A DNA stretch of 5,745 nt from Oscillospiraceae bacterium (GTDB lineage Bacteria; Bacillota_A; Clostridia; Oscillospirales; Ruminococcaceae), in the NCBI GenBank assembly GCA_017829075.1, contig JAGAJA010000110.1:1-5745 (forward strand), in the 5' to 3' direction. Made by a program: the position numbers and the translations under genes. The notes under the pieces are model-generated. The model saw nothing but the letters and a program-made list of their open reading frames with translations, searched no databases and was not told the DNA's origin. Position 1 is the first letter of the stretch. Each line of letters begins with the position of its first letter. Shown one piece after another: positions 1,393-5,745 of the stretch.

Positions 1393-2323
1393 GCTTTCAT
1401 CTCCTCTACATACTCATCAGGTGAAACAACCTTAACCCACACTCCCTGACTTAATAGCCACATCTTTATCCCATCGCCATAAACCTCGGCTTCAATAAGA
1501 TATTTGCCGCCACTCATTCGCTCGATGATTTTGGCAGTAGGTAACTTGTCAAGAACAGCTTGAACAGAAGGACCACTGAACTCAAAGCGTATTGTCCGTA
1601 ACTTGCCCGGAAACATTAACAGACTACGCTTACGAAGCAATCCCTCATCGAAAATTGGTGCTTCGTTGTTCCGCTTTGCTCTATGAACAGTAATCTCCTT
1701 TATTCGGTCAATTCTGAAATAGTACGGCTTTTCTGTGTCATCTTCGGAAAGAAACGCAATAAGATAAAAATAGAAATCTGTGAACATCACCGAGGCAGGG
1801 CGCAAACGATGTGTAACCCACTTCCTGTCTATGCGATAATAATCAATGCTTATTTCCTTTTTCTCCGTAATACAATTTACGATTTTCCATAGGTTTTCTT
1901 GAACACTATCGCAATCGTGCTTGATTTCGGGATAATGATAAAGTTCCTTGCGGATAAGTTCGTTGAGTTTAGGTCGGTCATCTGGGGTAGTAAACCGCTT
2001 TAACTTGTCTGTTATCGTAAGCAATTCTATTTTCGAAAAAGCTCTTGCACCAATTATCACCTCAATAATCGAAAACAATTCCTTGTTCGAAAGAAATTCG
2101 TCCATATAAAGACGATAACACTTATTGCTGTATGAATACTGCAATTCAGTGTTGCCAACCAAATTCCTGTGTTCAGCAAAAAGTCTTTTACTTCATTGAT
2201 ACTGCGTGTTATGCTCTTGGTCGAAACTCCGTATTCATTAGCCAACTCCTGTACAGAAATATCTTCACCACGCAATCCACGAAAAAAGATTTCAAGAACT
2301 CGATACTTTTTTGTGTTTTCCAT
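1389..2323 (-). pseudogene. WYL-domain transcriptional regulator (wHTH-WYL-C-terminal domain), frameshifted
   Basis: Two minus-strand frames together encode one regulator. The first starts at ATG 2323 and carries a winged HTH (ISVQELANEYGVSTKSITR, residues ~22-40). The second, down to TAA at 1391-1389, carries the linker, a WYL domain at ~157-211 (YFYLIAF at ~184, FRIDRI ending ~208) and a C-terminal WCX-like domain at ~242-311. Continuity is restored by adding one T to the T5 run (2182-2178): DF, then AEHRNLVGNTELQYS. The repaired product is 311 residues, a normal length. ATG 2323 is preferred over GTG 2332 because the GTG lies in the SD (GAGGTG, 6 nt before the ATG). WYL proteins are usually ligand-sensing DNA-binding regulators; BrxR/CapW of defence loci share this architecture. 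As written, the protein is cut after the HTH, so the gene is inactive unless the shift is a sequencing error or is bypassed. Confidence 0.8.
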
Positions 2324-2351
2324 TTCTTCCACCTCTCATATTTCTATCTCT

Positions 2352-2385
2352 ATTATAATTATTGAATAAGACAAACGGGTGTCTT
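2352..2385 (-). promoter_or_regulatory. WYL gene promoter with overlapping operator
   Basis: A consensus TATAAT lies on the minus strand at 2357-2352, about 30 bp before the WYL ATG. No good -35 is found at 16-18 bp. Instead that position is covered by the dyad AAGACA-N6-TGTCTT (2368-2385). A dyad over the -35 region suggests autoregulation, either repression by occlusion or activation in place of a -35. Confidence 0.5.
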
Positions 2386-2395
2386 GCTAAAAATA
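2369..2395 (+). repeat. Direct repeat copy 2 with perfect 6-bp-arm dyad
   Basis: This is the second copy of the 27-bp repeat, here with dyad arms AAGACA (2368-2373) and TGTCTT (2380-2385). It shares the non-palindromic tail TTGCTAAAAATA with copy 1 at 1302-1328. The two copies bracket the WYL gene about 1.07 kb apart. The location over the WYL promoter favours an operator. Confidence 0.55.
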
Positions 2396-2396
2396 G

Positions 2397-2426
2397 TTGA
2401 CAATATAGAGCTGTATATATTACGAT
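2397..2426 (+). promoter_or_regulatory. Possible plus-strand promoter running into a hairpin
   Basis: TTGACA (2397-2402) is followed after 18 bp by TACGAT (2421-2426), which matches 4 of 6 bases. It begins just past the second operator-like repeat. Any transcript starting near 2433 would meet the hairpin and T6 run at 2437-2476 within about 45 nt. No gene follows on this strand, so the role is unclear. Confidence 0.25.
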
Positions 2427-2436
2427 AATTTACAAG

Positions 2437-2476
2437 AAAATCGCCGCCCGCTCTGATGAGTGGACAGCGATTTTTT
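2437..2476. terminator. Long hairpin, bidirectional intrinsic terminator
   Basis: AAAATCGC (2437-2444) pairs with GCGATTTT (2467-2474), and inside it CCGCTC (2448-2453) pairs with GAGTGG (2458-2463) around a TGAT loop. On the plus strand it ends in six T (2471-2476); on the minus strand in TTTTCTT. It can stop transcription coming from hsdR towards the WYL promoter, and also plus-strand read-through from the WYL side. Confidence 0.7.
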
Positions 2477-2489
2477 CAGATTTGAAAAA

Positions 2490-2518
2490 GAAAAGTCGGC
2501 GGTGCTATATGTAGCACC
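2490..2518 (-). terminator. hsdR terminator (perfect 7-bp stem)
   Basis: GGTGCTA (2501-2507) and TAGCACC (2512-2518) form a perfect 7-bp stem with a 4-nt loop, 17 bp after the hsdR stop. On the minus strand it is followed after about 6 nt by a T-rich stretch (CTTTTCTTTTTC). With the hairpin at 2437-2476 it makes a tandem pair ending the restriction operon. Confidence 0.65.
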
Positions 2519-2534
2519 CATTATCAACTTAACG

Positions 2535-5500
2535 TCAGTTGAACACGTTGTCCGTCCACAATTCGCATTGCGTCATAACTGTCTGAACTGCGTCCTCCAT
2601 ACCCTCTGGCGGGTATCTGTGACTTTTCAGCAGCTTCTTAATCAGCATACGCATTCTTGCTCTTGCCGAGTCTTTTTTCTGCCAATCAATCGTCTTATTT
2701 TTCCGCAGCGTTTCGGTAAGCTCTTTTGAAATCGCTATAAGCTCGGAGTTTTCGTAAAAATCCTTTACAGCCTGCGGTTTTGTCAATGCGTCATAGAAAG
2801 CCAGCTCATCGGCAGTAAGACCGAGTTCTTCTCCCTCTTTGGCGGCGTTGGAAATATCCTTCGCCATTTTCATAAGTTCTTCGATGACCTGCTCATTTGT
2901 CAACATTCCGTTGAGATAAGCATTCATCGTGCGCTGAATAATCTCGGAGAATTTCTCTGATTTAACCACATTTGTGCGGCGGTAAATATGTATCTGCTCG
3001 GCAATCAGTTTCTTCAATAATTCAACAGCAAGGTTTTTCTCTTTCATCTTTGCGACATCTTCAAGGAATTTAGGGTCGAACAGAGAGAATTCCTCTTTCA
3101 CATCTGAAAAGAGATTTATAACACCGTCGCTCTTGATACTATGCTTAAGCAATTCGTTTATGCGAGCATTCATTTCGGGCAGAGAAATCTTCTTGTCGCC
3201 ACCTTGATTGGAAAGTCGCATAACAAGTACCCGGACAGCTTCAAAGAACGCCGCTTCTATACGAAGTTGTTCGTCAACCAACGAGGAGCAGAGAGAAAGC
3301 GACTGATGAAGCATAAGGGCTTCTTTCAGGAACTCCTCTTTATCCGCTTCTCTTGCGGGAGCAATAATAAAGTTTACTGCGCCGCTGATAGTCTTTGCAC
3401 GGTCAAGGTCACTGCCGTTATTGAAATTATGATAATCGTATCCGTGAAAAAGGTCTTGGCAGCGTGAAAGCTTTTCAAGGAATTTCGGATAAGCCACCTT
3501 TCCGACATCGGTATCGCCGTAGTTCTTCCTATCACGAACGGTATAGTCGTTCATAGCCTGTTTAAGAGCAGAAGCTATACCCACATAGTCAACTACAAGA
3601 CCACCCTCCTTGTCACGGAACACACGGTTTACTCTTGCAATAGCCTGCATAAGATTATAGCCGCTCATCGGCTTATAAACATACATTGTAGCCAGCGAGG
3701 GAACATCAAAACCCGTAAGCCACATATCAACTACGATTGCGATTTTAAGCGGGCTGTTGTTGTCCTTGAATGTTTTCGCAAGCTCGTTCTTGTGAGCCTT
3801 ATTGCCGATAACGTCACGCCATTCTTCGGGGTCTTTATTGCTTGAAGTCATTACTACCGCAACCTTCTCCGTCCAATCGGGGTGAATTTCAAGTATTCTG
3901 CGGTAGATTTTCATTGCGATTTCTCTTGAATACGCAACTATCATCGCTTTACCTGTCAGCAGGTTTTCTCTGTTGTTTTCGTAATGGTCGAGAATATCAA
4001 TGACAAGAGTGTTAATTGTAGCGTCATTACCGAGAATTGCTTCCATACGGCTCAATTCGTGTTTGCTCTGTTCAATTACGCTTGCGTCCGCATTGAGAGC
4101 CATTATATCATACTCTTTATCAATTAGCCTAATAGTATCTTCATCGAGTTTCAGCTTTACGACACGGCTTTCATAATAAACGGGACGAGTAGCTCCGTCC
4201 TCGACAGCCTGCGTCATATCATAAATATCAATGTAATCGCCGAATACCTCTCTTGTACTCCTGTCTTTTGAAGAAATAGGCGTTCCTGTAAACCCTATGA
4301 AAGTAGCGTTCGGGAGGTTGTTTCTTATTATACGAGCCGTACCGTATTTAAGTTTACCTGTTTCGGCTTCAACGCTTTCGGCAAGCCCGTACTGTCCACG
4401 GTGGGCTTCGTCAGCCATAACGATAATATTTCTGCGTTCGGAAAGGGCTTCGTCTGCTTCCTCGAATTTCTGCATAGTGGTAAAGATAATTCCGTTGGCT
4501 TTTCTTCCTGCAAGCAGAGATTTCAAATGCTCACGGCTCTCGGCGTGAACAGGGTCTTGCCGCAGAAAGTTCTTGCACTTTGCAAACTGCCCGTAAAGTT
4601 GGTCGTCAAGGTCGTTTCTGTCGGTCATAACAACGATTGTCGGACTATTGAGCGCCGATTGCAGCAAATGAGCGTAGAACACCATTGACAGCGATTTTCC
4701 GCTTCCTTGCGTATGCCAGAACACACCGCCTTTTCCGTCGGTAACGGTTGCCTTTTTGGTGGACTCAATCGCTTTCTTAACCGCAAAATACTGGTGATAG
4801 CCTGCAAGTATCTTGATTTCCTTTGTTCCGTCATCGGAAAAGCAGATGAAGTTTTTCAGTATATCAAGGAAACGCTCTTTTTGGAAAATGCCCTCAAAGA
4901 AAGTATCAAATTGAGCGCATTGTGTATTCTCATAATTGCCGTCTGTCGTTTTCCACTCCATAAATCTATCTTCGCCGGAGGTGATTGTTCCTGCCTTTGA
5001 TGTAGAAAGGTCGGACATAACGAGAATAGCGTTATAGATAAACAGCGAGGGAATATCATACATATAATTGCGGAGCTGTAAGTATGCTTCTGAAGCGTCT
5101 GTTTCTTCACGGGAGGGGGATTTCAGCTCAAACACGCACACAGGCAGACCGTTCAGAAAAACAATAACATCTGGGCGCTTTTCTGCGTTCTCCACGATTG
5201 TCCATTGATTTGCGATAATAAAGGAGTTTTTGTCGATGTTCTCATAATCCACAAGGTAAACGAGCGCAGAGCGTTCCTCTCCCTTTTCGGTATATCGAAC
5301 AGGTACGCCATTCTGCAAGTAGTCCATAAACACGGCATTTTTCTGCACCAGCTCGCCGTTCTCAAAATTGCGGAGTTTATGTAATGCGTCTTGAATAGCA
5401 TCATAAGGCGCTTTCGGGTTAAGGCGGCGCAGACTTTCTTCAAGGACTTCATCGTATAATGGGGAGTTGAAATTGCGTTCTATGTTCGGACCATAGGCAT

Positions 5501-5576
5501 AGTCATATCCCAAATTGCTTTGGAATAGGTCTATTATAGCGTTTTCATAGTTGGCTTCTGCAAAGTTGTCAGCCAT
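2535..5576 (-). CDS. hsdR: Type I restriction enzyme, R (endonuclease/translocase) subunit HsdR
   Basis: This 1013-aa protein is close in length to EcoR124I-type HsdR and complete. HsdR joins HsdM and HsdS to form the complex that translocates DNA with ATP and cuts far from an unmethylated site. The N-terminal PD-(D/E)xK nuclease shows D136, E150 and K152 (ELK), plus a Q167-x3-Y171 motif. The helicase motor has Walker A QGSGKS (290-295), DEAH (389-392), FTGTP (429-433), TGFDVP (621-626) and QAIARVNR (644-651). The C-terminal part (~690-1010) fits the DUF3387/EcoR124-type region that contacts the methylase. The ATG at 5576 has a strong SD (AGGAGG, 5585-5590, 8 nt away). No promoter is visible; the only upstream sequence is an opposite-strand hsdS segment, so transcription probably arrives from hsdM/hsdS beyond the window. 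All key residues are intact, so it should be functional. Confidence 0.97.
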   Translation of the reverse strand: MADNFAEANYENAIIDLFQSNLGYDYAYGPNIERNFNSPLYDEVLEESLRRLNPKAPYDAIQDALHKLRNFENGELVQKNAVFMDYLQNGVPVRYTEKGEERSALVYLVDYENIDKNSFIIANQWTIVENAEKRPDVIVFLNGLPVCVFELKSPSREETDASEAYLQLRNYMYDIPSLFIYNAILVMSDLSTSKAGTITSGEDRFMEWKTTDGNYENTQCAQFDTFFEGIFQKERFLDILKNFICFSDDGTKEIKILAGYHQYFAVKKAIESTKKATVTDGKGGVFWHTQGSGKSLSMVFYAHLLQSALNSPTIVVMTDRNDLDDQLYGQFAKCKNFLRQDPVHAESREHLKSLLAGRKANGIIFTTMQKFEEADEALSERRNIIVMADEAHRGQYGLAESVEAETGKLKYGTARIIRNNLPNATFIGFTGTPISSKDRSTREVFGDYIDIYDMTQAVEDGATRPVYYESRVVKLKLDEDTIRLIDKEYDIMALNADASVIEQSKHELSRMEAILGNDATINTLVIDILDHYENNRENLLTGKAMIVAYSREIAMKIYRRILEIHPDWTEKVAVVMTSSNKDPEEWRDVIGNKAHKNELAKTFKDNNSPLKIAIVVDMWLTGFDVPSLATMYVYKPMSGYNLMQAIARVNRVFRDKEGGLVVDYVGIASALKQAMNDYTVRDRKNYGDTDVGKVAYPKFLEKLSRCQDLFHGYDYHNFNNGSDLDRAKTISGAVNFIIAPAREADKEEFLKEALMLHQSLSLCSSLVDEQLRIEAAFFEAVRVLVMRLSNQGGDKKISLPEMNARINELLKHSIKSDGVINLFSDVKEEFSLFDPKFLEDVAKMKEKNLAVELLKKLIAEQIHIYRRTNVVKSEKFSEIIQRTMNAYLNGMLTNEQVIEELMKMAKDISNAAKEGEELGLTADELAFYDALTKPQAVKDFYENSELIAISKELTETLRKNKTIDWQKKDSARARMRMLIKKLLKSHRYPPEGMEDAVQTVMTQCELWTDNVFN

Positions 5577-5584
5577 ACTATCAA

Positions 5585-5593
5585 CCTCCTTTA
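5585..5593 (-). promoter_or_regulatory. Strong ribosome binding site deciding the hsdR start
   Basis: TAAAGGAGG on the minus strand lies 8 nt before ATG 5576, fixing that codon as the start. It falls between hsdR and the end of the inverted hsdS homology, leaving only about 20-30 bp between the two genes. Confidence 0.85.
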
Positions 5594-5596
5594 TGA

Positions 5597-5745
5597 ATTG
5601 TTGGAAACTGTAATTTAGAGCAGCAAGCGCAGGCTCTATTTAACAGATTGTTCATTGATAAAGCTAACCCAGAGTGGAAATCAGGAACAATAGCAAACTT
5701 GGGAACTGTTGTAGGCGGGGGGACACCGTCCAAAAAAGTAGATGA
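5597..5745 (+). CDS. hsdS: Headless hsdS segment: type I specificity subunit, central repeat plus start of a target recognition domain (3' end outside window)
   Basis: After an in-frame TGA (5594-5596) the plus strand is open for 49 codons to the window end. The translation contains LEQQAQALFNRLFID, the conserved helical spacer typical of HsdS, then NPEWKSGTIANLG and VVGGGTPSKK, the hallmark opening of a Methylase_S target recognition domain (PF01420). HsdS recognises the DNA target and holds HsdM and HsdR in the complex. There is no ATG, GTG or TTG with an SD before the conserved spacer; homology simply begins there, so this half cannot be translated on its own in this orientation. It faces away from hsdR, opposite to the expected co-directional hsdM-hsdS-hsdR order. 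That is how silent hsdS cassettes are arranged in invertible type I systems. A dead remnant left by rearrangement is the alternative. Confidence 0.85.
   Translation, partial: MVGNCNLEQQAQALFNRLFIDKANPEWKSGTIANLGTVVGGGTPSKKVD

Follow-up and report, generated by a model that had tools for sequence, protein, structure and literature searches.

A startless, inverted hsdS half beside hsdR in an Oscillospiraceae bacterium, probably one end of an invertible type I restriction locus of the SsuCC20p type

Background

The described system that most resembles the locus considered here is SsuCC20p of Streptococcus suis which, in the parts of the published account drawn on here (PMC10790761), consists of the same components: hsdM, hsdR, xerD and four target recognition domains (TRDs). 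Both C-terminal TRDs of SsuCC20p lie within the same 14-bp inverted repeats TAAATCATCATTTA, a form close to that of the site described below, and each genome with a complete locus has one complete hsdS, as do nearly all of the two-gene relatives analyzed here. Switching is xerD-dependent, as tested by experiment, and the passages cited leave unexplained the paired cassette switching that keeps exactly one hsdS whole (PMC10790761). The present DNA differs in belonging to another host group, in its site core, and in displaying one locus end.

Other inverting systems have also been described. SpnIII/cod of Streptococcus pneumoniae, as portrayed in the cited portions of PMC4948785, PMC4190663 and PMC7096588, has in common a tyrosine recombinase, hsdS pieces lacking a start, a 15-bp repeat dependent on the recombinase, and TRD exchange by inversion; however, it has three different repeat sets (15, 85 and ~300 bp) and one active hsdS accompanied by silent copies, and those portions mention no further hsdS that begins with a start codon of its own. 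The inverting type I systems of a REBASE survey (PMC7394358, as excerpted) have a pair of hsdS genes between which TRDs can be exchanged and often a recombinase gene in the locus, but their repeats are situated before the 5' TRD and between the TRDs, unlike the arrangement here. Since that survey, in the excerpt used, kept repeats longer than the known homologous-recombination ones, a site of 14 bp might go unnoticed in it. A gut community survey describes inverton group 145, which has inversions over subunit S genes and is likened to the present locus by description and not by repeat sequence; in the cited part of its account tyrosine recombinase and relaxase genes are enriched nearby, and it occurs in gut Firmicutes_A and Bacteroidota (PMC11892184).

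Loci compared

The window, i.e. the whole 5,745-nucleotide stretch analyzed, was compared with two sets of loci. The first consists of the best 80 of 576 confirmed relatives from an HsdR search of genome contigs, together with 6 viral contigs. The second was derived from a recombinase search of 394 genomes from the order, 391 from the class and 398 from the phylum to which the genome carrying locus L002 (see below) belongs, a few being drawn repeatedly, which gave matches at E<=1e-60 in 16, 24 and 7 genomes, respectively; 40 regions were taken, duplicates of L002, L040 and L025 being passed over along with a single distant match.

Two-gene loci were defined by two hsdS genes with sites and a recombinase between them, and number 39, i.e. 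27 of the first set (best 80 of 576 plus viral) and 12 of the 40 second-set regions. Among the matches listed, 37 of the 86 first-set loci have a recombinase match; the ten not counted (L024, L034, L035, L060, L061, L075, L077, L081, L082 and L084) are cut off, degenerate or of differing layout; in L084 a full, a short and a startless hsdS occur together. Excluded from the second set were L136, in which recombinase and hsdS2 are duplicated (2252 bp at 100%) so that two hsdS are full and one is short; L170, where three sites were found and hsdS1 is unclear; 7 regions that repeat other motifs; and 19 lacking the site. The last include L146, L173 and L174, although hsdM, recombinase and hsdR are present in these. 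In a comparison between the two sets by shared 200-mers, L138 and L139 of the second set overlap L081 of the first, outside the 39. Among the blemished loci that were kept is L151, whose flipped cassette has a stop after 40 codons.

The window

The open piece at the right-hand end of the window is the C-terminal half of an hsdS gene (Table 1). The preceding in-frame stop is at 5594-5596, and the frame that follows, IVGNCNLEQQAQALFNRLFIDKANPEWKSGTIANLGTVVGGGTPSKKVD, is stop-free to the last base. No ATG, GTG or TTG lies ahead of the NxNLEQQAQALF spacer in the plus-strand frame from 5597; the first TTG is at 5648, and a start there would remove the spacer. The 46-residue piece gave 35 tblastn matches at E<=1e-3 in 30 of the 126 loci searched, the best with 70% identity (E 2e-16) and the top ones covering the spacer and the start of the C-terminal TRD, while Pfam returned no match to the piece by itself. 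A preliminary description of this DNA had recognized a startless hsdS segment opposite hsdR that runs from the conserved spacer into a TRD, and both the frame and tblastn confirm this. The piece belongs to a C-terminal TRD cassette that carries the site within its spacer, lacks a start and runs opposite to hsdR; the same TRD type is also inverted and startless in L055 and L073 among the matches listed. Viral contigs scanned with a 54-base piece of the TRD gave no match, and plasmid records gave no near match to window positions 2400-5745.

Table 1. Coordinates of the hsdR and hsdS features in the window
Feature	Position	Strand	Basis
hsdR, type I restriction subunit, 1013 aa	2535-5576	-	Pfam HSDR_N, SWI2_SNF2, T1RH-like_C; NCBIfam hsdR
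28-bp leader, site to hsdR start; GGAGG upstream of ATG	5577..5604	-	sequence
Startless C-terminal hsdS half (spacer and first part of TRD), cut by window end	5597..5745	+	frame, tblastn
Candidate recombination site AAACTGTAATTTAG, encoding NxNL of spacer	5605..5618	+	exact 14-mer, inverted pairs in L001 and L002
Stretch identical to inverted startless half of L002, 33 bp	5605..5637	+	sequence comparison

The adjoining gene encodes an HsdR with HSDR_N, a SWI2/SNF2 motor and a C-terminal domain, as expected of a type I restriction-modification system, and the GGAGG of its leader is likely the ribosome-binding site. Neither a recombinase nor hsdM nor a partner cassette is visible within the window, which stops inside the hsdS half, and the 14-mer is present in single copy with no inverted partner in the 5,745 nucleotides.

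Other features of the window are of less certain nature. An HTH-WYL regulator on the minus strand (1389-2332) is spread over two frames, HTH at 2332-2057 and WYL plus WCX at 2162-1389, and thus looks frameshifted, either in the genome or in the assembly. About 84 bases downstream of hsdR (2435-2518) recur twice in L002, near 11225 and at 15234-15320, the second copy with ~92% identity, and are possibly a dispersed intergenic repeat. An open plus-strand frame truncated by the window start (1-972) has no Pfam or NCBIfam match; it may be the tail of a relaxase, which would place the locus next to a mobile element.

Nearest relatives and the recombination site

The nearest relatives by HsdR (98% protein identity; best 80 of 576) are L001 and L002, whose long DNA matches to the window are 94% and 93% identical, respectively. 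L002 contains, in order, hsdM (2316-3824), an hsdS1 ending at 4341, an inverted startless half (4995-4338), a tyrosine recombinase (5085-6089) with Phage_integrase and SAM-like N-terminal domains, a full hsdS2 (6103-7281), an AlbA/Schlafen-type gene (7304-8065) and hsdR. The order in L001 is hsdM, one full hsdS, a TIR-domain gene of the CAP12/Pycsar type (9298-9984) and hsdR. These near-identical systems therefore hold different accessory genes in the gap between hsdS and hsdR, and the window holds none. What the preliminary description anticipated for an invertible locus is thus found in relatives: an inverted hsdS half that lacks a start and lies upstream of hsdR, a short spacer repeat present in inverted copies, and a tyrosine recombinase within the locus.

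The 14-mer of Table 1 is the core common to all copies of the site in these two loci, four in L002 and two in L001, all exact. It brackets every C-terminal TRD cassette in both as an inverted pair, one copy in the spacer and the other just after the stop codon. Because the window carries one copy, the inverted repeat is demonstrated in the relatives rather than in the window. The repeat had been placed at about 5609-5660; the core is in fact shorter and begins slightly upstream, and identity with the L002 half extends only to 5637. Repeats of 29 and 59 bp in L002 are extensions of the 14-mer at like cassette ends, so that the several distinct and partly long repeat sets of SpnIII/cod are replaced in L002 by four sites of one 14-mer. 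The silent-cassette model of the SpnIII kind initially proposed accordingly gives way to one of the SsuCC20p type, with two hsdS genes that each possess a start codon and a C-terminal cassette lying between copies of one 14-bp site.

The same layout is found in other loci with AAA(C/T)NNNAATTTA (among the matches listed), the NNN of which is constant inside each locus and varies from locus to locus, as would fit a crossover-region requirement. Among the matches listed, the cores of the 39 two-gene loci are AAACAATAATTTA in 11, AAACGATAATTTA in 10, AAACAAGAATTTA in 9, AAATGATAATTTA in 4, AAATGAAAATTTA in 2 and three others in 1 each, and exactly four core copies are present in 36 of the 39, the exceptions retained being L065 and L171 with three exact copies and L040 with five. 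Four distant recombinase loci near hsdM-like genes (L156, L157, L158 and L160) have a different short motif in repeated copies, AAATTGAAATTTG, which may serve a sister system as its site.

The window thus probably represents one end, that next to hsdR, of an invertible type I restriction locus built like SsuCC20p, the remainder being predicted from the relatives. The order of such a locus would be hsdM, hsdS1, XerD-like recombinase, hsdS2, hsdR. In each hsdS the N-terminal half would stay in place, whereas the C-terminal TRD cassette would lie between two inverted copies of the 14-bp site, the first in the spacer codons NxNL and the second directly after the stop. Crossing over at the sites, presumably by the recombinase, would flip or exchange cassettes, leaving a gene either full length or stopping a few codons past the site to give a one-TRD protein. 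In the window cassette 2 would be flipped beside hsdR, with hsdS2 short and hsdS1 full, and the predicted outcome of switching is altered methylation and restriction specificity.

One full and one shortened hsdS

The two-gene loci follow an almost strict rule. Exactly one full hsdS together with one shortened by a flipped cassette is seen in 38 of the 39 (among the matches listed). In the first set (27 loci, among the matches listed) hsdS1 is full and hsdS2 short in 11, the reverse holds in 15, both are short in one (L040) and both are full in none; the 12 loci of the second set divide 7 to 5 between the same two states and none breaks the rule. In the sole exception, L040, the two cassettes are identical in 640 of 640 bases.

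Four sites of alternating orientation allow 16 arrangements. Were all equally likely, exactly one full hsdS would be found in 75% of loci, and in 50% of those with the recombinase in forward orientation, as against 38 of 39 (p 2e-4) and 36 of 37 (p 3e-10) observed, with loci treated as independent, which is only roughly true. The recombinase is co-oriented with hsdM in 37 of the 39 and inverted in L057 and L059 (among the matches listed), i.e. in 2 of 39 versus the 50% expected under free inversion; in contrast, the S. suis assemblies show no inverted xerD in the part of their description cited (PMC10790761). By computation, the arrangements with one full gene are all connected by single inversions inside that class, via states with an inverted recombinase, so that paired switching could come about with no need for two coordinated inversions. 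Two other explanations are equally good, namely selection against arrangements with two or zero full genes and coordinated recombination, and the scarcity of inverted recombinases argues somewhat against the stepwise path.

The truncated gene stops within 10 codons in the coding frame at 76 of the 78 sites of the 39 loci (among the matches listed). A clean stop as proof of a selected half protein was considered and dropped: the other two frames at these sites also have stops mostly inside or adjoining the site, and the stop codon of the cassette, read in reverse, shares bases with the stop in the coding frame, so that the feature is no more than suggestive. Single-TRD HsdS proteins functional as homodimers are listed for EcoDXXI derivatives in the cited part of PMC3874165, and three truncated pneumococcal hsdS alleles arising by DNA excision had no detectable methylation in that of PMC4948785, which counts against a working half protein. 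It is a rather unlikely extension that the rule would hold Bacillota-wide and be kept stepwise, that flips of the recombinase block would couple the two genes so that all alleles are reached by single inversions and never with two or no full HsdS, that the one-TRD HsdS from the other gene would be a working specificity subunit, and that L057 and L059 would be natural intermediates.

Sequence ends

Of the 43 sequences cut off upstream of hsdR among the matches listed, 23, the window included, end no more than 161 bases past an outward-read site. Eight of these (L029, L030, L033, L034, L039, L042, L047 and L075) break off 13-16 bases after the site begins, close to the point beyond which both orientations no longer agree in sequence; L079, outside the 23, begins at a site. 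The window itself ends 141 bases after the site start, which would fit an assembly at k=141 in which two different left neighbours preceded the cassette. Further ends agree with common k values: 55 in L012 and L062 (and in L070, at 54 plus one possibly shared base), 77 in L013, and 127 in L015 and L017 after adding two and three possibly shared bases, the name of L015 stating k127. A less clear or poorer fit is seen at 25 (L006), 53 (L048), 97 (L052), 161 (L074), 77 or perhaps 79 (L077), 70 (L080) and 139 (L009 and L014), and these departures of several cut-off contigs from the usual k values count against a two-gene locus in the window. Since a graph assembler halts where a sequence has two neighbours, the breaks suggest that both arrangements were present in the samples; a second strain sharing the TRD of the window would yield an identical break.

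Alternative interpretations

The most serious alternative, although an unlikely one, is a single-cassette locus in which the C-terminal TRD of one hsdS is flipped by two sites to give full-length or one-TRD HsdS, the recombinase being elsewhere or lost. L001 is of this kind, having a single hsdS with a pair of sites and giving no match to a recombinase within the locus, and L004, L031 and L050 each have one hsdS with a flipped cassette. In both L001 and L002 an extra gene separates hsdS from hsdR, in place of the 28 bp found in the window, which counts against the main reading. However, among the matches listed, the cassette next to hsdR is flipped in 19 two-gene loci (hsdS1 being full in 18 of them, the other being L040) versus three single-cassette loci, and it is from this ratio that a full hsdS1 and a short hsdS2 are expected for the locus of the window.

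It is very improbable that the segment is a dead hsdS fragment beside hsdR in which switching has been lost. The missing start codon and the absence of a visible partner in the window would suit such a remnant, but the frame is open to the window end, the start of the TRD matches intact genes, the site is identical to those of L001 and L002, and in 38 of the 39 two-gene loci (among the matches listed) one cassette normally exists as just such a flipped half without a start. Misjoining of an hsdS half to the hsdR leader during assembly, which a sequence end so near a repeat might favor, is hardly credible in view of like junctions in numerous separate assemblies, some from genomes that bear no MAG label (Hornefia butyriciproducens L069 and Peptoniphilus sp. 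L011), and of the 127 bases by which the window continues beyond the site. An invertible two-gene locus therefore remains the preferred interpretation, and the phase-variable reading of the preliminary description is supported, for this genome by way of its relatives.

Implications

The design of the locus is already known from the Streptococcus system and is frequent in related gut bacteria, and cultured relatives such as Anaerotignum lactatifermentans DSM 14214 (L026) and Hornefia butyriciproducens (L069) carry the locus; what the survey adds is the almost strict rule of one full and one short hsdS, and the natural occurrence, in two loci, of a recombinase in inverted orientation. The recurrence of the rule across many related loci suggests, together with the stepwise path, an approach to the paired switching encountered in S. 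suis. The tendency of short-read contigs to break at the sites suggests that such switches are easily missed in metagenomes. For this gut bacterium, a flippable hsdS piece probably allows it to alter the DNA sequence that its restriction enzyme marks and cuts.
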